A stretch of DNA of 64,000 nucleotides from Meghimatium bilineatum (taxonomy: Eukaryota > Mollusca > Gastropoda > Stylommatophora > Philomycidae), in contig CM067298.1 of NCBI GenBank assembly GCA_034231615.1, positions 5,573,799 to 5,637,798 on the forward strand, read 5' to 3'. The notes under the pieces were generated by a model. That model ran no database searches. It saw only the letters and a program-made list of their open reading frames with translations, and was not told where the DNA came from. The position numbers were made by a program, and so were the translations under genes. Below are positions 497 to 64,000 of this stretch, in pieces (position 1 is the stretch's first letter; each line of letters starts with the position of its first letter).

Positions 497-3400
497 CTGT
501 AAAGAATAAACATTTAAATTTTGATGAATGACAGATTGCAGTAAAACTCTGCACCATATGGTAAATAAATACAGTTTTTAAATTTTAAATAATTATTTTT
601 AAAAGTTTTAATTACAGTTATTGATTTACAATATATGCTTATTAATGAAAAACACATGGGAGGAGTATGTCTAAACATATAGGAGGGTGTGGAAACACAT
701 GGGAGGAGTATGTCTAAACATATAGGAGGGTGTGGAAACACATGGGAGGAGTATGTCTAAACATATAGGAGGGTGTGGAAACACATGGGAGGAGTATGTC
801 TAAACATATAGGAGGGTGTGGAAACACATGGGAGGAGTATGTCTAAACATATAGGAGGGTGTGGAAACACATGGGAGGAGTATGTCTAAACATATAGGAG
901 GGTGTGGAAACACATGGGAGGAGTATGTCTAAACATATAGGATTATGAAAACACATGGAAGAAGTATGGAAATACATGGGAGAAGTGTGAAAACATGGGA
1001 GAAGTGTGAAAACACATGGGAGGAAAGGAAAATTAGAATCACGGGCATAGAGATTAGAAGATTATTAGAGATTTTGCCCTAAAGAATATTAAAGAGAAAT
1101 GGGGGTTCTATAGAAGATTACAGAGACATGTTGTTCTATAGAATTTTACAGAGACATGGGAGTTCTATAAAATATTACTGAGAAAAGGGAGTTCTATAGA
1201 ATATTACTGAGACAAGGGAGTTCTATAGAATATTATTGAGACATGGAAGTTCTATAGAATATTACTGAGACAAGGGAGTTCTAAAGAATGTTACTAAGAT
1301 ATGAGGGTTCTATAGAATATTACTGAGACATGGGAGTTCTATAGAATATTACTGAGACATGGGAGTTCTCTAGAATGTTATTGAGACATGGGAATTCTAT
1401 AGAATATTACTAAGACATGAGGGTTCTATAAAATATTACTGAGACATGGGGGTTCTATAGAATATTACTGAGACACATTTTTCTATAGAATATTACTACG
1501 ACATGGCGGTTCTATAGAATATTACTGAGACATGTTGTTCTATAGAATGTTACTGAGACATATTGTTATAGTGTATATATTTAAGTGCATTGAAATCATA
1601 TATGGAAGCCCAGTGGAAAAAATGTATATGTTTTTAATAAACATTGCTAACAAGTATTGGATGTATAATTTTACTGTCAGTTTCATTTGAATAACCAAAT
1701 ATAATTGCATTCTAGTCACACAACAGTTATGTTGTGATCTGTCAGTATTTTAGTCACACAACAGTTATGTTGTGATCTGACAGTATTCTAGTCACCCAAC
1801 AGTTATGTTGTGATCTGACAGTATTCTAGTCACACAACAGTTATGTTGTGATCTGACAGTATTCTAGTCACCCAACAGTTATGTTGTGATCTGACAGTAT
1901 TCTAGTCACACAACAGTTATGTTGTGATCTGGCAGTATTCTAGTCACACCACGGTTATGTTGTGATCTGGCAGTATTCTAGTCACACCACAGTTATGTTG
2001 TGATCTGGCAGTATTCTAGTCACACCACAGTTATGTTGTGATCTGGCAGTATTCTAGTCACACCACGGTTATGTTGTGATCTGGCAGTATTCTAGTCACA
2101 CAACAGTTATGTTGTGATCTGACAGTATTCTAGTCACACCACAGTTATGTTGTGATCTGGCAGTATTCTAGTCACACAACAGTTATGTTGTGATCTGGCA
2201 GTATTCTAGTCACACAACAGTTATGTTGTGATCTGACAGTATTCTAGTCACACCACGGTTATGTTGTGATCTGGCAGTATTCTAGTCACACAAAAGTTAT
2301 GTTGTGATCTGACAGTATTCTAGTCACACAACAGTTATGTTGTGATCTGGCAGTATTCTAGTCACCCAACAGTTATGTTGTGATCTGGCAGTATTCTAGT
2401 CACACAACAGTTATGTTGTGATCTGACAATATTCTACTGACAGTATTCTAGTCACACAACAGTTATGTTGTGATCTGACAATATTCTACTGACAGTATTC
2501 TAGTCACACAACAGTTATGTTGTGATTTGGCAGTATTCTAGTCACACAACAGTTATGTTGTGATCTGACAATATTCTACTGGCAGTATTCTAGTCACACA
2601 ACAGTTATGTTGTGATCTGACAATATTCTACTGACAGTATTCTAGTCACACAACAGTTATGTTGTGATCTGGCAGTATTCTAGTCACACAACAGTTATGT
2701 TGTGATCTGACAATATTCTACTGACAGTATTCTAGTCACACAACAGTTATGTTGTGATCTGACAATATTCTACTGACAGTATTCTAGTCACACAACAGTT
2801 ATGTTGTGATCTGACAGTATTCTACTGACAGTATTCTAGTCACACAACAGTTATGTTGTGATCTGGCAGTATTCTAGTCACACAATGGTTATGTTGTGAT
2901 CTGGCAGTATTCTAGTCACACCACGGTTATGTTGTGATCTGGCAGTATTCTAGTCACACAACAGTTATGTTGTGAACTGACAATATTCTACTGACAGTAT
3001 TCTAGTCACACAACAGTTATGTTGTGATCTGGCAGTATTCTAGTCACACAAAAGTTATGTTGTGATCTGGCAGTATTCTAGTCACACAACAGTTATGTTG
3101 TGATCTGACAGTTCATCATTCAAGAAAATTGCTCCAGCATTGCCTAAAATAAATACTTTATAACAGCATAACTAATCTGTTACTCTCCATCTCTCCATGT
3201 CTTATGTGTGTGTTGGTGAACATATGTGTGTGTTGGTGAACATATGTGTGTAGACATCCCCCTCTGTTATACAAATGGTTCTGCTAACGTGACAAAATAT
3301 ATTCTGCATTTTATAACTTACCCCCCCCCCCTACTTTATACAAATGGTTCTGCTAACATCACAAAATATATTCTGCATTTTATAACTTACCCCGTGCTTT

Positions 3401-19767: not shown

Positions 19768-20069
19768 GTAAACATTTTGAATATTAATTAATTGTACGTA
19801 CATCTGAGAATTATAGCAATGTGATCAACAGATGTGTCTTGTCTTTGTGAATACAAAAATATATAGTTTCTATAGTATTTTATTATGTTTAATAGATATA
19901 TAATTTATTTTTATTATAATTATGCTAATTAGCAGCCATTTTGAATATCAATTAGTTCTGTGTCCATCTGAAAATTCTAGAAATGTGATCAACATAAGCG
20001 TCTTGTCTCCACAAGCACAAAAATGTATAGTTTGTGTGTTGTATTATTGAAAATAACATAGATAATTTT
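19768..20069. repeat. Diverged tandem duplication upstream of LINE-G
   Basis: TTTTGAATATTAATTAATTG...ATATATAGTTTCT (19774-19872) recurs as TTTTGAATATCAATTAGTTC...GTATAGTTTGTG (19941-20038), roughly 80% alike by eye. Confidence 0.65.
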
Positions 20070-20080
20070 GAAATTGTCAG

Positions 20081-20156
20081 CCCCCATCGAGGCCAGCTCC
20101 TTGACGTGGAGATGGGGCTTAGTCCAGCCAGCAGAGGCTGGAAACTAAGACTGGCC
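20081..20156 (+). ncRNA. HDV-like self-cleaving ribozyme at LINE-G 5' end
   Basis: Nested double-pseudoknot pairing is visible. P1 is 20081-20087 with 20112-20118 (six Watson-Crick pairs, C82-U87 with A112-G117; C81 faces C118, or G80 pairs C118). P2 GGCCAG 20091-20096 pairs CTGGCC 20151-20156. P3 CTCC 20097-20100 pairs GGAG 20108-20111. L3 is 20101-20107. P4 CCAGCC 20124-20129 pairs GGCTGG 20136-20141. J4/2 (20142-20150) contains CTAAG, where the catalytic C sits in HDV-type ribozymes (here C20145). Predicted cleavage is at 20080/20081, exactly the TSD border. Known R2 and other non-LTR elements use such ribozymes to free their 5' ends. Confidence 0.85.
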
Positions 20157-20277
20157 GGGCCCTCCCACATTCGGGCAGGACCACAGTCTTGCCTAGCAAG
20201 TAAAGGTGCTGAAGTCAGCGACATTTGGCCAGAAGGCGCACCGCAACAATCAGAATGTCATGCATTATCGCACATGA

Positions 20278-23200
20278 ATGTCTATATCTGCATTACCCCG
20301 TTATGGTGCTAACCCTGTGACGACTCACCAGGCAGGAGTAGCACCGGGCCCTATACCTCGAAAGGGCCCACCCCATACGACTGGAGGTCCTCTTCGATTG
20401 CCTTGTGGAGCCAGGAGGCACAAGAGTAATATCACTGACCAACAAATATTACCAACCAATGAGACATCACTTACAATAATGCACTGGAATGCTGAGGGTG
20501 TAAATAGCAAAAAAGATGGCCTTAGCAAGAAATTAGAATTAGAAAACACCCTTCACAAGGAACAGGTCAGCATTTGTTGCATACAAGAGACACACCTCAG
20601 CAAAGATGTAGCCTTTAAAATTGCAGGTTATCAGTGCTTTAGAGCTGATCGAATAGACAGAAGAAAAGGAGGTATACTAACTCTAGTCAAAAATAATATC
20701 AGCGCACATCAAACTGAGCTATACATGGAAGGAGCAGAATATCAGGTCCTTCAACTAAAGACCAAGAACACAGACTTCAACATACTAAATTATTATTGTC
20801 CAAATGACCAGTCCCTTTCCCTGGACACAATACCGTACAGAGGAAGACTGATAGTATGTGGAGATTTTAATAGTCACTCACAAAGCTGGGGTTATGACCA
20901 CATGGATAAAAGAGGAGAAGAACTTGAAAGCTGGCAAGACGATAAATGTCTTCTATTGCTTAATAAGCCAAAAGATCCTCCAACATACTACTCAAGAGCA
21001 TGGCAAACCACTTCCACGCCAGACGTGGCATTGTACTCAGCAGACCTAAACTGGGAAATCAATAGAACAGTAGGGAAGCAACTTGGAGGTAGCGACCATC
21101 GACCAGTCCTCCTTAGTATTAAAAATGAACTCACAGGAAATGCATGTAGCCTTCCAAGATGGAATTATAAAAAGGCAAATTGGGGACTATTTAAACACCG
21201 CAGTAGTGTTTTAGCTGGACAAATAGACATGGAAGGAAAAGACATAAACGCCATAGTCAAAGAGTTCAATAAATGTATTCATCAAGCTGCCAAGGAAGCA
21301 ATACCAAGAGGAGCACGCAAACAATACAAGCCATACTGGAGTGAACAACTAGAACTGCTGCAAGAGGAATTAGAAAAAGCACGGACGGAAGTGGAAAATA
21401 ACCCAAGCCAGGAACATCACAACAAACATCAACACGCAAAAGCCAAATTCCAAAGAGCCAAACTAGAAGCTAGAAGAAAGAGCTGGAAAGAGAAAACAGA
21501 ATCCTTAAATTTTGAAAAGGATGGAAGAAAACTGTGGAAACTGGTCAAACAACTAAATGATGAGGGAACAGGAAGAAGCACAAACATAACACTCATACAA
21601 AATGGCAAAATGATTACAGGAAAGCAAGCAGTAGATAATTTCGCTAGGATATTTGCTCAAGACTGCAATATTGAAATTAGTCCAGAGAAACAGCATACAG
21701 TGCGGAGCAACCAAAAAAGTAAATTGGAACATGCTCAGACTAGCATCAGTGATGAAAACAGTGCAGATGAAATTATGGATACATTGTTCACATATAGTGA
21801 ATTAGAATTAGCAGTCTCTAAACTAAAGCTAAATAAGTCCCCAGGAATTGATGAAATATCAAATGAAATGATAAAGAATCTAGGAACAACAGCCAGAAGG
21901 AAACTATTGGACATCCTAAATATTAGCTGGACTACTGGGAAAATACCACAAATCTGGAGAGAATCAATTATGGTCCCTTTGCTTAAACCTGGAAAAGATG
22001 GAACAACACCAACTAGCTACAGACCAATTAGTCTTACAAGTTGCCTGTGCAAAACAATGGAGCGCATCATAAACCTAAGACTAAAATTTCACCTGGAAAG
22101 TAGAAAATTCCTTGCACCACAGCAGGCAGGTTTCAGGCAATGCTACTCCACAGAGGATCAAACCACATACCTCTCACAGGAAATTGAGGATGCTTTCCAA
22201 GACAAAAAATCAGTTTTAGTGGCATGGATTGATTTACAGAAGGCCTTTGATAAAGTATGGAAAGAAGGATTGCTTCAAAAAATGAGAAACTACAAGATAT
22301 GTGGAAATATGTATAGATGGACGAAAGCCTTTCTTCACAATAGAAGAGCCAGAGTACAAGTAAATGGCAAAAAAAGTAGGAAAGTATTACTACGCCATGG
22401 AGTGCCTCAAGGAGGAGTTCTATCACCCACTCTTTTTCTCATATTTATCAATGATCTAATTGAAGAAATACCCTGTGGAACTAAGGCAGCACTATATGCA
22501 GATGACTTGGTTCTGTGGTGCACACATGAGAGCGCCATGGTTACCACAAAAATGCTTCAGAGAGCCATGGACATTTTGACTAATTGGGCTGACAAATGGT
22601 GTGTAAGTATCAATATAGAGAAGTCAGCAACAACCCTTTTTACACTTTCACCAAAACAAAGAGCAGGAAACATCTATGTAAATAAAACTATCTTAAAGGT
22701 AGATGACCAACCCACTTATCTTGGTGTAACATTTGATGCCAAAATGACATGGAAACATCATATCAGCAAAGCAGAAACAAAGGCTAGAAGGAAGATAGCT
22801 ATACTAAGAAAACTGAGTGGGACAACTTGGGGAGCTAATGAAAGAATTCTAAAAAATGTATACCAACAAGCCATTCGACCACACTTGGAATATGGTTCTA
22901 CAGCATGGAGTTCATCATCAAACACTACACTACAAAACCTAGATAGAGTACAGAACCAAGCACTTAGAATCATTACAGGCGCAATGAGATCCACACCAAT
23001 CATAGAAATGCAGAATATCGAAGGGATGCAGTCATTGAAAGAGCGTAGAGATACTAAAATTATAATTCATGGAGAAAAGTTTCTTTCCCACCATAGTCAC
23101 CCAATGAAGGAAAGATTCCAGAATCTATCACAAGGACGGCTTAAAAGAAGCAGCTTCATACACCAGGCCAAGCGTCTACGTAGACAGGTATCGGATCTAC

Positions 23201-23946
23201 CAGAGGTAACAATACCACTGACATCTCAACCAGAACACACCCCATGGGAAAAACGGACATGCCTACCAGTGACCATCCAAACAACAGTAGCAGGTGTGCA
23301 TGGGGATGAACATCAGAATAATCTGCAGAAAAGAGTAGCAGCTCTCAGTTTCCTTGATGATGTTTACCCAAGTGATCTATGGACCAGAGTATATACAGAT
23401 GGATCAGCACAGAATGCAGTAAAAAATGGAGGAAGTGGTGTATATGTAGAATACCCAGATGGCACCACTGATACCACTTGTATACCAACAGGGAATTACT
23501 GCAACAACTATGACTCTGAAGTCAAGGCTATTTATACAGCTGCAGAGAAACTGTTAACATTGGACAGGACCTCACACCCTGTTGTAATACTTACAGATGC
23601 AAGGTCAGTGCTAGAGGCATTACAGTCCAATAAACTTCCAGAGTTAAAAGAGGTATTGTCCATAGTACAAAATAGGTGTAGAGTTATACTGCAATGGATT
23701 CCATCACACTGTGGAATAGCAGGAAATGAAAGAGCTGATCAACTCGCCAAGGAAGGTGCTAACATGCAGCAACCGGATGTACCAATCAGCTATCACCAAA
23801 AGAAATCCATGATAAAGGCACAACGAAAGCCTAACTTACCTCCACGGGATGACTACCACCTACTTAACAGACAAGAACAGGTCATCATATTTCGACTGAG
23901 AACTGGACACAATAGACTAAACAGCCATATGTATACAAAATTTTAA
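20278..23946 (+). CDS. LINE-G polyprotein: APE endonuclease, RT, RNase H (1222 aa, premature stop)
   Basis: First in-frame ATG at 20278; the true start is uncertain and could be downstream. Endonuclease: MHWNAEGV (N71), CIQETHL (E104), GDFNSHS (D196, N198), SDHRP (272-276). Reverse transcriptase: NKSPGIDEI, YRPISLTSCLCKTMERI, QAGFRQ, DLQKAFDKVW, HGVPQGGVLSP, and the catalytic YADD at 740-743. RNase H: YTDGSA (D1041), SEVKAI (E1081), TDARSVL (D1107), SHCGIAGNERADQLA (H1144, D1154). All catalytic residues are present. A TAA at 23944-23946 replaces a lysine codon found in sibling copies. Reading continues in frame for 65 codons to TAG at 24142-24144, through a CNCGQ...H...C putative metal-binding motif. 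Otherwise there is no frame damage. Confidence 0.93.
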   Translation: MSISALPRYGANPVTTHQAGVAPGPIPRKGPPHTTGGPLRLPCGARRHKSNITDQQILPTNETSLTIMHWNAEGVNSKKDGLSKKLELENTLHKEQVSICCIQETHLSKDVAFKIAGYQCFRADRIDRRKGGILTLVKNNISAHQTELYMEGAEYQVLQLKTKNTDFNILNYYCPNDQSLSLDTIPYRGRLIVCGDFNSHSQSWGYDHMDKRGEELESWQDDKCLLLLNKPKDPPTYYSRAWQTTSTPDVALYSADLNWEINRTVGKQLGGSDHRPVLLSIKNELTGNACSLPRWNYKKANWGLFKHRSSVLAGQIDMEGKDINAIVKEFNKCIHQAAKEAIPRGARKQYKPYWSEQLELLQEELEKARTEVENNPSQEHHNKHQHAKAKFQRAKLEARRKSWKEKTESLNFEKDGRKLWKLVKQLNDEGTGRSTNITLIQNGKMITGKQAVDNFARIFAQDCNIEISPEKQHTVRSNQKSKLEHAQTSISDENSADEIMDTLFTYSELELAVSKLKLNKSPGIDEISNEMIKNLGTTARRKLLDILNISWTTGKIPQIWRESIMVPLLKPGKDGTTPTSYRPISLTSCLCKTMERIINLRLKFHLESRKFLAPQQAGFRQCYSTEDQTTYLSQEIEDAFQDKKSVLVAWIDLQKAFDKVWKEGLLQKMRNYKICGNMYRWTKAFLHNRRARVQVNGKKSRKVLLRHGVPQGGVLSPTLFLIFINDLIEEIPCGTKAALYADDLVLWCTHESAMVTTKMLQRAMDILTNWADKWCVSINIEKSATTLFTLSPKQRAGNIYVNKTILKVDDQPTYLGVTFDAKMTWKHHISKAETKARRKIAILRKLSGTTWGANERILKNVYQQAIRPHLEYGSTAWSSSSNTTLQNLDRVQNQALRIITGAMRSTPIIEMQNIEGMQSLKERRDTKIIIHGEKFLSHHSHPMKERFQNLSQGRLKRSSFIHQAKRLRRQVSDLPEVTIPLTSQPEHTPWEKRTCLPVTIQTTVAGVHGDEHQNNLQKRVAALSFLDDVYPSDLWTRVYTDGSAQNAVKNGGSGVYVEYPDGTTDTTCIPTGNYCNNYDSEVKAIYTAAEKLLTLDRTSHPVVILTDARSVLEALQSNKLPELKEVLSIVQNRCRVILQWIPSHCGIAGNERADQLAKEGANMQQPDVPISYHQKKSMIKAQRKPNLPPRDDYHLLNRQEQVIIFRLRTGHNRLNSHMYTKF

Positions 23947-24144
23947 ATTGGCACAACAGCAAAGTGTAATTGTGGACAAGTCAACCAGACTTCAGAACAT
24001 ATCCTTCAAGAATGTGCAAACTATGACACATTAAGATGCACATACTGGCCTTCTGATACACCAATGAATGTTAAACTTTATGGTACAAAACAAGAAATGG
24101 AAAACACTGTCCAATTTATACAAGAAACAACACTGCAGATATAG
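23947..24144 (+). pseudogene. LINE-G C-terminal tail cut off by the stop at 23944
   Basis: In frame with the polyprotein after the stop: IGTTAKCNCGQVNQTSEHIL, then QECANYD and a YWP motif, ending QETTLQI-stop. The same tail, joined without a stop (MYTKFKIG...), is seen in the copies at 8102-8311 and 50777-51030. The C-x-C-x9-H-x4-C spacing suggests a metal-binding knuckle. Confidence 0.85.
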
Positions 24145-24189
24145 ACATTATTAGCGAACGAAAGAAGAAGAAGAAGAAGAAATTGTCAG

Positions 24190-25059
24190 CTCATAAACAT
24201 TTTGTGGTCACAAGTTTTATTTATATTTTCCTATATCATAGGCCCCTATAGTATATCATATAAAAAAGTTATGAATTTTTTTCTAATGAATTTGACATAA
24301 AAATAATTTACATGAAACATAATACTTATACATATGTTTCATGTAAATTATTTTGATGTCAAATTCTTATTAAAAAATGCATAACTTTTTTTCAGGATTG
24401 ACGACAGACTTGGTTAAAGTATCATTGAATTGAAATTTTTAAGGGCTATCTAACTTATTTGTAATTATAATTATGTAGCACTATTTTAAAAATTGTGTCC
24501 AAGTACCTACGATTGTTCTATTCTACTGCACGACAAGGTTTGTATATGGATAAAGCGACGTTCACAAATTGTGTATTGGGCCAACCGTGTATTGTTTTAT
24601 CATTTTTGCTAATTATAACAACATAAGGATGGTTCCAATCAAAAATATAATATGCCAACGTCACTTTTTATTTATTATTCTGCAAAGTTCGTGAGCCTGC
24701 AACCCTAACGCACATAAGTCCAGTTTGCAGTGATGATGATCTGGCAACTAACTAAATAATAGCAACCACTGCTAACGTAATAAAATTATGCAAGTACCTC
24801 TTAAAATAAATTTACTTTGACAGCTGCATCAAAATATTAACATGAGCTCAACATAGGCCTATACAAAATTAAAAATTTTAAGCAGCCATTTCATATCACC
24901 ATGGAAGCAAAACAATGTTTATACTTTGCTGCATAACATATTTTCATTACAAAAGATTGCTTCAATGACAATTTCAACTTCCCCGTGAAAAACATATGCA
25001 GGGTTGCCATATTGGCAATTGTTTGTTTAAATTTCGTATATTTTGCCATTTATACAGGT
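24190..25059. other. Intergenic, no gene seen
   Basis: AT-rich sequence after LINE-G. Apart from the near-palindrome at 24262-24392, nothing recognisable. Confidence 0.6.
24262..24392. repeat. Near-palindrome, arms about 60 bp
   Basis: AAAAAAGTTATGAATTTTTT ... ACATGAAACATA is inverted after a spacer of about 9 nt as TATGTTTCATGTAAATTATT ... ATAACTTTTTTT, with a handful of mismatches. It lies 73 bp beyond the LINE-G 3' TSD. Confidence 0.8.
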
Positions 25060-27363: not shown

Positions 27364-27623
27364 GCCGTGTGTTGCCAGGGCTCGAAAGTGTAGCAAAGAA
27401 TAGCAACACTGTTTACCTTCCACGCATGTCGCAAAATGCGACTAAGGAGGTTATGGGATGAAGTTGCTGTCCCATCAGTGACCCAAAGCCATGCTGAAGT
27501 CGGATGTGTCAGGCCGAAAGGCGCAGATATCGCAGCAATGTTGTAAACCATGACACAACGCATTCCGTTCTCCGGACTACATCCTGCTAATCTATAGGAG
27601 TTTGAGAACGAACGAAGAAGAAG
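27364..27623 (+). mobile_element. SINE-A copy with 13-bp TSD
   Basis: 260-bp unit from GCCGTGTGTTGCC to GAACGAACGAAGAAGAAG, flanked by ATCATGATGTTCC at 27351-27363 and 27624-27636. It starts with a 7-bp stem GTGTTGC/GCAACAC. The middle (GAAGTCGGATGTGTCAGGCC, GAAAGGCGCA) resembles the LINE-G leader, and the tail matches LINE-G. Confidence 0.88.
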
Positions 27624-28639: not shown

Positions 28640-29555
28640 TGTCTCGCAAAGACAGTCCAAGATGGCGCAGCCTAAAGCAGTGTTGGTAGAACCACTGCAC
28701 AGTAGACGTCCAACTTAATTGATACCACACCTGATCTAGACGTTGGCACGAAATGTTCATAGCAACATAACAGATAACGTGTACTTAAACGTTCAGGCTA
28801 CCTTTTCTTCATCCAGCCTGCAACCAGTTGTATATTTGTGCTCCAGTCCTCGAACCATAAAAAGTTGCCTCCCTCTGAGCTGTCAATCTCTTGATGGTGT
28901 CCATACAGGCCTTATATAGAGCTGTTTTTTTAAGCAAAATAACTTGGGATGGTCTATCTTTCATACGAAGGATGTCTTCAAAAACGGTATGTAGGAAGTA
29001 AACTGAGACAAGCTTGCGAGTATAACAGTGCTAGTGTTACAAATAGTAATATCGACATACTAACAATGCAACACAAGAACAGATGGTAATTCAATTTTTT
29101 TTTTAAAGTCTTACTTATGATTAAAAACAGTGATGAACCTACATTTCCAAGAAGAGAACGTTTGGTAGAGTCTGAGGCTTGAAAGTTGTTTCAACTTGGT
29201 GACCGTCCATAAATTACGCCACCTTTTTGGGGGACAATTTTTGTTTTGAGTAAATTAGCAGAACAAGCGTAATAAGTTTTTAGATTTTGATTAAGAAATT
29301 TTTTAATTTGCACAATTTAATTGTATCAAATAACGCTTGTTAACATCAACTTTTGTCACCCACTCCCTTAACAATTGTCAAACTCTTTTTTAGACCCTAC
29401 CATCCCCAAATTTGTTGACATAATTTATAGATGGCTAATGATAGATAGGGCCTAGAACCAACTTATGGGAGAAACAGGCTATGGTAGATAGGGCCTTACA
29501 CCACTTGATGGGAGATTGATAAATGTGTAAATCCAGAAAAATAAAAGAGGTAGTC
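28640..29555. other. Intergenic, probable LINE debris at 28800-28990
   Basis: The minus strand at 28850-28920 reads TIKRLTAQREATFYGSRTGA-like sequence of unclear origin. The rest is AT-rich without features. Confidence 0.4.
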
Positions 29556-29559
29556 ATGG

Positions 29560-29998
29560 GGCAGGATTATGGTGAGAAAACACCAGGAGATGCCACCATG
29601 GGACAGAGATTAAGGTGAGAAAACACCAGGAGATGCCACCATGGGACAGAGATTAAGGTGAGAAAACACCAGGAGATGCCACCATGGGACAGAGATTAAG
29701 GTGAGAAAACACCAGGAGATGCCACCATGGGACAGAGATTAAGGTGAGAAAACACCAGGAGATGCCACCATGGGACAGAGATTAAGGTGAGAAAACACCA
29801 GGAGATGCCACTATGGGACAGAGATTAAGGTGAGAAAACACCAGGAGATGCCACTATGGGACAGAGATTAAGGTGAGAAAACACCAGGAGATGCCACCAT
29901 GGGACAGAGATTAAGGTGAGAAAACACCAGGAGATGCCACTATGGGACAGAGATTAAGGTGAGAAAACACCAGGAGATGCCACCATGGGACAGAGATG
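29560..29998. repeat. Minisatellite, 43 bp x 10
   Basis: Unit GATTAAGGTGAGAAAACACC AGGAGATGCCACCATGGGAC AGA, almost perfect, so recently homogenised. Confidence 0.96.
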
Positions 29999-30098
29999 GG
30001 GAGTAATATTAATAGAATATAAATGTACATGAGTTTAAAAGTGAAACAATGATGATAACGATGGTAAAGAAAATAACAATGATGATAATGACAATGAT

Positions 30099-31097: not shown

Positions 31098-31249
31098 TAG
31101 GCCTACATGATATGCTTCAAATATATTTTTATAATTGAATATCACTGATGTTTATTCTAATTGAATATCATTGATATTTATTCTAAAAAAGGACATCCTA
31201 GTACTCTTTTATTTTCTAGAAATATTTTTTTTACTGTAACAATGTTAAT

Positions 31250-31441
31250 GAAATCGGTTGCATGATACCATGATGGTTGCTGATGCACCTCTCAGCCTGA
31301 TATCTCCAACTTCAGCACCTGTTCTTGCTTGGCAGGAATATAGTCCTGCTAGATGTAAGGGATAGCCCAACCATTTTTCAGCTTCTGTTGGTTGAACTAA
31401 CTCCAATCTCCACTTCAAGGAGTTAGCCGTTATGGGGATTT
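31250..31441 (-). mobile_element. LINE-G 5' leader relic with decayed ribozyme
   Basis: The minus strand aligns with 20081-20270: P3/L3/P3' survive (CTCC at 31422-31419, TTGAAGT, GGAG at 31411-31408), P4 and P2 are partly kept, and GGTGCTGAAGT...ATCATGCA follows. The CTAAG of J4/2 is lost. Only the 5' end is present, which is odd for a LINE, whose truncations usually remove the 5' side. Confidence 0.65.
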
Positions 31442-35959: not shown

Positions 35960-36575
35960 TGATGCCCATGTGTTGCCTGGACCTGAAACAGGTGAAAATA
36001 ACAGTGACATCATTACATGCCATGCATGTTGTAAGATATGAGTAAGGAGATTTTGGGGATGAAGTTAGCTGTCACTACAAGAATTAAAATGGGTACCATA
36101 TGGCAAAAGAGGAAGACCAAGAGAGACTCTTCACAGAACAACCATCAAAGAGAGTATAACTATGGGTCTTAACAATATGCAAGAATTACAAACAGTAGCA
36201 TCACATTACTTGAACTGGAGAGCTCTGGTTTCTGCCCAATGTATTGCGTTTGTTGATAAAGGAACATTGATAGAACTGGAGAGCTCTGGTTTCTGCCCAA
36301 TGTAGTGTGTTTGAAGGAACATTGATAGAACTGGAGAGCTCTGGTTTCTGCCCTATGCACCGTGTTTGGCACTGAAGGAACATTGATACCTTAGATAGAT
36401 AATTAGCCGTTCCATCCCTTAGAGAGTCAAAGTGACTGAGAAGTAATGCTAAAGTCGGATGTGTCAGACTGAAAGGTGCATATATCACAGGCAAGCTGTA
36501 AATCATTACAATGCATCTCATTCTCCGGACTACATTCTGCTAATGTGCAGGAGTGCGAGAACAAACCTAAAAGAA
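35960..36575 (+). mobile_element. SINE-A copy split by a LINE fragment
   Basis: Left part 35960-36075 (CCATGTGTTGCCTGGACCTG) and right part 36401-36575 (GTCGGATGTGTCAGACTGAA to AAAGAAGAA) are the two halves of one SINE-A. Confidence 0.75.
36076..36400 (+). mobile_element. LINE C-terminal fragment with threefold duplication, inside SINE-A
   Basis: PYGKRGRPRETLHRTTIKES and LNWRALVSAQC mark a LINE end. The last 60 bp or so (ACTGGAGAGCTCTGGTTTCT) is tandemly present three times. It splits a SINE-A copy (35960-36075 and 36401-36575). Confidence 0.65.
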
Positions 36576-36983
36576 GAATATAGTAATTATTTCAAACAAG
36601 GAAAGGATCCTAAGTTGTAAGTAAATGCAGCAATAGCACAAAAAATATCAAAAATAACAAGAGCCACACAGCGTTGGTTAAAATTAAATGTGATAAATTT
36701 TTTCAGCAACAGTAACAAAAAATTACAGAGTAATACAATGTTACAATCTATGCTTATAAGCAAATGAAATTGAAATAAAAATATTAGATGAAAGAATCAA
36801 AATGACTTTTTTGATGACTGTAGTCTTGCCGTATTGAGCCAATTCATTGTCACATTATCATCATTGTTAATTCTAGTTTTGTTTTTAATTTCATATTTCT
36901 TTTTATATGCTCTGTTTGTCATGTAATTTTGTATGTATATTTCTATATTACTACCGGTACTCTCTTATTTCCATTTCTGCCAG

Positions 36984-44784: not shown

Positions 44785-62265
<17,481 letters not shown>

Positions 62266-63478: not shown

Positions 63479-63498
63479 GATGATGATGATGATGATGA

Positions 63499-64000
63499 TG
63501 TTCGTCCGTCGTGATCGACGATGACCAAAAACTCAACCATAATAATAATAATAACAATAAATAATAAAATAATAAAGTTAATAGTGCGTTTTTAAATGAC
63601 TAGCAAGTCCAATGCGCGCACAAAATGTTCTTTTACAGAATTGACAACAATAGAAGGTATCTGTGTGAGGTTGAGATGTTTTTTCTTTTCTACGTGTCCG
63701 CTTCTGTCTTGCAGTTTCTTGTCTGAGTTCTTCTGCCGCTAGTGCTCCCGTTCTAATGCTGTAACGCCATGCTGTTCTATCCTGAGCGAGGCTCTCCCAA
63801 GCGCCTACGTCAATGTTAAGATGTTTCAAGGATGACTTGAGCGTGTCTTTGAAACGCTTTTTCTGTCCACCAGCTTTTCGAAAACCTGCCTTGAGTTCTC
63901 CATAATATATTTGTTTTGGCAAACGCGAGTTCTCCATACGCACAAGATGGCCTGCCCAGCGTGCCTGCGCCTTCATAAGTTTTGTGTGGATGCTTATTGA
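63499..64000 (-). mobile_element. LINE-Z 3' part, cut by right window edge
   Basis: Frame 63976-63578 encodes the same C-terminus as 54401-54838, with the same terminal C2H2 finger. A (ATG)n run at 63478-63500 is the 3' tail. About 11 differences to the 54-kb copy over roughly 490 bp. Confidence 0.88.

Follow-up and report, generated by a model that had tools for sequence, protein, structure and literature searches.

Does the LINE at 20082-24178 of the 64,000-nt stretch of Meghimatium bilineatum DNA analyzed here (the window) owe its 5′ end to a self-cleaving ribozyme? An initial annotation had drawn an HDV-like ribozyme by eye at this terminus. Judged from its sequence, the segment 20082-20156 is very probably an HDV-like self-cleaving ribozyme, and as such sets where this single-ORF, RNase H-bearing LINE begins. 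Observed at the locus and among its relatives are a drawable fold with its core nucleotides, a uniform 5′ end, conservation of the element's head, and one compensatory base pair. The element and its main parts are:

20082..24178, + strand: full-length LINE copy with a GAA-rich tail at its 3′ end, flanked on both sides by a target-site duplication (TSD), its 5′ end recurrent in the genome
20070..20081, + strand: 5′ copy of the TSD, GAAATTGTCAGC, 12 bp, an exact match with 24179-24190
24179..24190, + strand: 3′ copy of the TSD, an exact match with 20070-20081
20278..23946, + strand: ORF of 1222 aa encoding endonuclease, reverse transcriptase (RT) and RNase H, with an early stop in the window copy
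20082..20156, + strand: HDV-like ribozyme candidate, 75 nt, delimited by a descriptor and by the uniform start of the fetched loci

Because the TSD reaches 20081, C20081 may belong to the flank. The genome (1.61 Gb in 32 contigs) was searched with 20060-20300, which gave 3432 first-look candidates; 40 were scored and all matched, so that at least 40 near-identical 5′ ends exist in the genome, and the best 30 were fetched, one of which (L010) is the window's own copy. The element is present from 20082 on in all 30 fetched loci (29 besides the window copy), these being the best-scoring copies, with 5′-truncated ones not represented, and, as the copy comparison itself began at 20082, the boundary rests on the flanks. 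The 20-nt flanks upstream are 30 different sequences with a mean pairwise identity of 0.31 (highest 0.70), and the base preceding 20082 is T in 13 loci, C in 10, A in 4, and G in 3. In these sequences, full-length copies have a single 5′ end, which is the first nucleotide of the predicted helix P1, and this uniform start after 30 different flanks places the predicted cleavage at 20081/20082. The initial annotation's expectation of a consensus 5′ end not well upstream of 20080 stands, but its cleavage site, 20080/20081, gives way to 20081/20082, where all 30 loci begin.

The copies themselves vary little: 22 of the other 29 are identical to the window across 219 nt, and the remaining seven differ at one or two sites. 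A20104G, at a base of the L3 loop, is found in six copies, one of which also has C20192T, and C20151T, in a single copy, turns a P2 G-C pair into G-U.

Within the 75 nt, the following parts can be assigned:

20082..20088, + strand: 5′ strand of P1, CCCCAUC, pairing with 20111-20117 over 7 bp and identical in the consensus of an older, diverged family described below
20091..20096, + strand: 5′ strand of P2, GGCCAG, whose partner is 20151-20156
20098..20110, + strand: P3 (UCC/GGA) with the L3 loop UUGACGU, U20101 and G20106 lying at the places of the U-G reverse wobble
20111..20117, + strand: 3′ strand of P1, GAUGGGG, immediately 3′ of P3
20118..20123, + strand: J1/4, CUUAGU, in which C20118 could pair with G20103 as a one-pair P1.1, and which is also complementary to 20144-20149
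20124..20141, + strand: P4 hairpin CCAGCC/GGCUGG with the loop AGCAGA, its strands at 20124-20129 and 20136-20141
20142..20150, + strand: J4/2, AAACUAAGA, with the predicted catalytic C20145 (CUAA), placed by analogy with the HDV family
20151..20156, + strand: 3′ strand of P2, CUGGCC, read from the sequence

All of the helices named at the outset are present, and an HDV-type double pseudoknot can be drawn with its pairs in register, comprising a P1 of 7 bp, P2 of 6, P3 of 3, and P4 of 6. The extents first given for P1 and P3 do not hold: C20088-G20111 is assigned to P1, which spans 20082-20088/20111-20117, so P3 has 3 bp (20098-20100/20108-20110), and a P1 of 7 bp followed directly by a P3 of 3 bp is the usual HDV geometry. 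Further marks of the HDV family are a U at the first position of a 7-nt L3 and CUAA in J4/2. Here, L3 has 7 nt with U first and G sixth, both retained in the old-family consensus, and C20145, followed by UAA, lies in J4/2 at the predicted catalytic place, as had been proposed. The P1.1 of HDV-like ribozymes consists of two pairs; in the candidate G20103-C20118 pairs and U20102-U20119 does not. G20149 and A20150 intervene between CUAA and P2, and the first base of P1 is C, not G. In the available text of PMC3774820, the L3 G that forms a reverse wobble with U is described as highly conserved.

Both strands of the 64-kb window were searched with a strict descriptor, which comprises the pseudoknot rules and calls for C at the catalytic place; it matches one site, 20082-20156. 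With T or G at that place it matches no site on either strand of the window, and with A it gives two rows, one of which is the same structure shifted to A20147. Strict matches occur in Markov sequence at 2 per 2.56 Mb for the composition of the window and 1 per 3.82 Mb for that of the 5′ UTR, and, with P1 forced to nucleotide 1 or 2 of the element, none of 386,713 dinucleotide shuffles of 20082-20181 passes, compared with 44 of 386,713 for a form that omits the L3 rule and admits more G-U pairs; these chance figures are somewhat flattering, because the descriptor was composed after the candidate had been seen and its tolerances (one free nucleotide ahead of P3 and as many as three ahead of P2) make room for it. 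A looser descriptor, permitting one P1 mismatch and a longer P4 and J1/2, matches eight rows in the window (three on the + strand, five on the −), so only the strict form is telling.

The Rfam HDV models, to which the initial annotation had looked for confirmation, do not provide it: no Rfam family matches at the gathering threshold anywhere in the window, the HDV families are absent at E up to 10 in 19950-20350, and six genomic loci give no match at E up to 1. An Rfam match is not a defining biochemical feature of HDV-like ribozymes, which, according to the available text of PMC4870747, have been identified by descriptor and share no more than five conserved nucleotides.

A second, decayed version of the head lies elsewhere in the window:

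31225..31437, − strand: copy B, a short element of ~213 nt, 70% identical to 20082-20264

The match of copy B to 20082-20264 begins at the same first base, and its TSD is 14 bp long with one mismatch (31451-31438 and 31224-31211). Three of its seven P1 pairs are broken, and it lacks six bases where P4 ends and in J4/2. Copy B was rejected as evidence of covariation, since single changes disrupt pairs of its P1 and P4 and its J4/2 is partly missing, a pattern that decay would produce. A genome search with copy B gave 1553 candidates, of which 40 were scored and 30 fetched. Two fetched loci, L040 and L041 (G000:C1:6056029, C1:5605057), are copy B and a second occurrence of it together with its printed flank; the two show no difference over the 179 nt matched and lie ~0.45 Mb apart, either a segmental duplication or an assembly duplicate. 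Copy B and its duplicate were excluded from the alignment, which comprises the other 28 loci (L042-L069) and the window. Taken singly, six of the 30 loci pass the descriptor at the first base with two G-U pairs allowed, the others being decayed.

The majority consensus of these 28 old copies differs from the window element at five of the 75 ribozyme sites (window to old consensus: 20096 G>A, 20105 C>A, 20131 G>A, 20151 C>T, and 20155 C>T), of which 20105 and 20131 are loop bases. The P2 pair 20096-20151 has changed in a compensatory manner, from G-C in the window to A-U in 25 of the 28 old copies, while 20092-20155, G-C in the window, reads G-U in 24 of them; none of the 22 pairs is lost in either the window element or the old consensus. 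Covariation between the two families thus amounts to one compensatory pair. P1, P3, and P4 are identical in both consensuses, and P1, being invariant, rests on its register and conservation; the compensatory changes that had been anticipated among genomic copies are accordingly found for one pair of P2, between the two families, and for none of P1. When the same five changes are placed randomly, no pair is broken in 2.7% of cases, a compensatory pair arises in 12.7%, and both occur in 1.0%. The ribozyme segment also differs less than the next stretch downstream (5/75 versus 26/106 sites; Fisher p 0.002), and given that the old copies match their own consensus as closely in one part as in the other (0.890 versus 0.889), this contrast is not a matter of local mutation rate. 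On this comparison, the predicted ribozyme head is under constraint as long as a lineage is active, whereas in dead copies it decays freely.

The old copies L055 and L056 continue into a LINE frame, with 48-57% and 29-50% identity per segment to the window ORF, a divergence that is partly decay, and their head is still recognizable. L063, L044, and L060 have shorter pieces of such a frame. In most of the other old copies, similarity between copies stops at about 170-260 nt; direct repeats compatible with short insertions are clear in L046 (12/12), L047 (10/10), and L058 (10/10), weak in others, and absent in 11 of the 28. These short lengths, together with some direct repeats, suggest that short non-autonomous elements carry the head too. 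Such elements of ~200-260 nt (window 31437-31225 on the − strand, and L042-L069) consist of the LINE ribozyme head and 5′ UTR.

A uniform 5′ end would likewise be expected of a transcription start site, and the head could in principle be an internal RNA polymerase II promoter, without a ribozyme, whose conservation reflects a downstream promoter element, CGTG (20105-20108), within a GC-rich 5′ UTR. The Pr77 sequence of L1Tc, described in the available text of PMC4748587 as an RNA polymerase II promoter, has CGTG at +25 to +28, and the window element has it at +24 to +27 counted from 20082. We nevertheless consider this explanation unlikely. An A stands at 20105 in 26 of the 28 old copies, making AGTG the consensus, yet the pairs, U20101, and G20106 are kept, which argues against a promoter as the sole cause of conservation. 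Nor does a promoter alone predict a 7-bp P1 in register with both P3 and nucleotide 1; by base composition, seven Watson-Crick P1 pairs have a probability of 8e-5, or 8e-4 if G-U is admitted. The promoter-only reading was set aside on these two grounds, the loss of CGTG and the register of P1. Given that promoter and ribozyme coincide in L1Tc, a promoter here may be an addition to the ribozyme rather than its rival.

Whether the ribozyme still matters to the element bears on a further possibility, that it is real but now an inactive relic. The ORF of the window copy ends at an early stop (23944-23946), past which a Cys-rich C-terminal tail follows in 18 of 20 aligned relatives. A genome search with P0044 gave 36 scored matches at 52%, 35 of them free of stops and 35 with a frame of 1288 aa; as 35 of 36 are without a stop, the window copy's early stop is not shared by the family at large. 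Nine of the 36 adjoin a head from the 20060-20300 search, and all nine are without a stop. Near-identical copies (22 of 29 unchanged over 219 nt, the other seven at one or two differences) and intact ORFs beside heads indicate that the family moved recently with its present head, which makes a relic very unlikely, even though complementarity between J1/4 and J4/2 could trap the ribozyme and most old copies fail the descriptor.

This complementarity is conserved in both families; it may trap the RNA during folding, act as a switch, or indicate that a nested fold matters too. Energy minimization of the 75 nt gives a nested fold (−31.2 kcal/mol), pairing 20118-20122 with 20145-20149 and thus hiding C20145, which is paired with G20122. 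In the fold of 20081-20280, P1 replaces P2 and a lengthened P4 is retained, and the old-family consensus likewise folds with P1 instead of P2 and a lengthened P4. A post-cleavage switch via 20184-20190 (CAGTCTT), complementary to 20147-20153, was rejected, as the complementarity is lost in the old-family consensus. That the conserved structure is only a nested 5′ UTR stem (P2, P3, and P4 with 20118-20122/20145-20149) serving translation, packaging, or protein binding, with P1 due to chance, is hardly credible: although this stem is the energy minimum of the 75 nt, keeps its lengthening pairs in the old consensus, and is as compatible with the single compensatory P2 pair, it leaves unexplained P1 (7/7 Watson-Crick from nucleotide 1 to P3 in both consensuses), L3, and CUAA, and the replacement of P2 by P1 in the two other folds is what would be expected if both helices were used.

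We return, then, to an HDV-like ribozyme at the head of the LINE. In the scheme that we infer for its cleavage, for the role of C20145, and for the source of transcription, transcripts would read through from an upstream promoter or start near the element's own end, and the RNA would fold into the double pseudoknot with C20145 as general acid. A cut at 20081/20082 would release an RNA starting exactly at CCCCAUC, and this RNA would be translated and reverse-transcribed, so that full copies would begin at the same base.

LINEs of the Ingi clade have one ORF with endonuclease, RT, RNase H, and a C-terminal Cys motif. This architecture is present here, with the Cys motif read in the 18 of 20 relatives beyond the window copy's stop. 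On architecture and on a gastropod survey, rather than on a tree, the LINE probably belongs to the I/Ingi group; the survey reports hundreds of Ingi sequences in some gastropods, with ribozymes unmentioned in its available text (PMC11203168). A protein search gave 298 matches with a top identity of 67%; among the 120 matches listed, the named relatives are proteins of the gastropods Bradybaena similaris, Littorina saxatilis, and Batillaria attramentaria, and most of the 120 lie on unnamed contigs of 3.5-5 kb. The relatives P0002-P0009 (59-67% identical) are encoded on metagenome contigs. A second protein search, from the alignment, added no named reference element among the best 120 of 337 matches. 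At the N-terminus (20278-20481), relatives share a P-, R-, and G-rich stretch (GARPV..QAGAVPG..PR..PP.ATGG..GAR) before the endonuclease. Traces of the ribozyme in translation were sought in the N-termini of the 70 longest of 121 proteins, and none was usable.

No relative was found in the viral collection, phages gave no match, and plasmids gave 17 records with distant RT matches below 60% identity. LINE-like frames occur at nine loci (L001-L009) in bacterial assemblies, several of them of clam symbionts (Solemya, a lucinid, Bathymodiolus), and are probably host contamination. The strict descriptor matches one of the nine (L009, whose two rows overlap and do not fall at the 5′ end of its match), and the looser descriptor matches seven, results that carry no information.

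Two related families, f1 and f2, which were found with P0090 (47% identical to the window ORF), have another 5′ end, beginning CTGGGGGG or CTGCGGGG in three copies of each. In f1 (G000:C1:114821658) and f2 (G000:C14:26669252), represented by the loci L070-L087, ~700-750 nt precede the coding match, and the termini of the two families resemble each other, as CTGsGGGG...CCCCTACCAGG.GCGTCCACAGG (three copies of each compared); one of seven f2 pieces, L081, is different upstream. Neither the strict nor the looser descriptor matches anything in 12 upstream pieces and six longer ones, and two very loose settings at the 5′ end yield seven rows in f1, none from its first base, and none in f2. As f1 and f2 are without the HDV motif, the module does not extend to the whole of the wider group. 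Their similar termini are possibly another structured RNA; the loci compared with Rfam gave no match. That these related families conserve a different 5′ end suggests that 5′ modules are exchangeable.

The window also holds other repeats. One family, with the core TGCTGAAGT..GGATGTGTCAGGCCGAAAGG.GCA and some variation, is seen at 27491 and 53307 (+), 37122 (−), and 36431-36577 (+); this core is shared with the LINE 5′ UTR, and a similar stretch lies just upstream of the f1 coding match. A tandem array at 29479-30080 has a 43-nt period in 10 registers, and a longer self-similar array spans 1709-3112. The segments 54322-54822 and 63496-63999 form a 500-bp direct repeat (97% identical), the first overlapping an ORF that, by eye, resembles the tail of another RT element.

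Among known systems, several carry this fold. The HDV, CPEB3, and phage theta ribozymes have the same core fold and catalytic C in different genetic settings. RTE, Baggins, R4, R6, and SART likewise have HDV-like ribozymes at their LINE 5′ ends, as Ruminski et al. reportedly described in 2011. R2, a site-specific element with another endonuclease and no known RNase H, is found in arthropods and other animals. As predicted for the window element, R2 is a non-LTR element whose 5′ end carries this fold, and in some hosts cleavage falls at the first base of R2, whereas most R2 species covered in the available text cleave upstream, within 28S rRNA sequence (PMC3774820).

The likeness to the trypanosomatid L1Tc/ingi elements concerns the protein as well, L1Tc also having one ORF. 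According to the available text of two papers, the first 77 nt of these elements form an HDV-like ribozyme (PMC4035085, PMC4748587), and L1Tc encodes endonuclease, RT, and RNase H (PMC4035085); in the window, too, the predicted ribozyme occupies about the first 77 nt of a LINE with these three domains. The single-ORF, RNase H-bearing architecture that the initial annotation described is correct, but its suggestion of a new carrier overstated the novelty, because L1Tc already has such a ribozyme; the window LINE would be a further carrier of a ribozyme type already known. In the literature searched, no report of an animal Ingi ribozyme was found, and as most subscription papers lay outside the search, novelty is unproven.

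Comparison with Pr77 covers nucleotides 1-28 of L1Tc, which follow from primer and mutant descriptions in the available text of PMC4748587 as CCCTGGCTCAGCCGG, CCACC, TCAA, and CGTG. P1 begins with C in both elements, and the L3 loops (TCAACGT in L1Tc, TTGACGT in the window) agree at five of seven positions, two of which are required by the fold. In contrast to L1Tc, the window element lies in an animal genome, its P2 is different, and its loop is one base closer to nucleotide 1. The trypanosomatid ribozymes are described, again in the available text, as set apart from those of R2 and HDV by P1.1 and by how the GC pairs of P1 are oriented (PMC4035085), differences with which the C-first P1 and short P1.1 of the window element would fit. 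That L1Tc/ingi and the window LINE share one inherited module, predating the animal-trypanosomatid split and captured by the short elements, is a tentative proposal that we rather doubt. An apparently recently active molluscan LINE is added to the carriers of HDV-like ribozymes, one invisible to Rfam, and it allows a direct test of whether a single LINE lineage has had the Pr77 ribozyme since ancient times.
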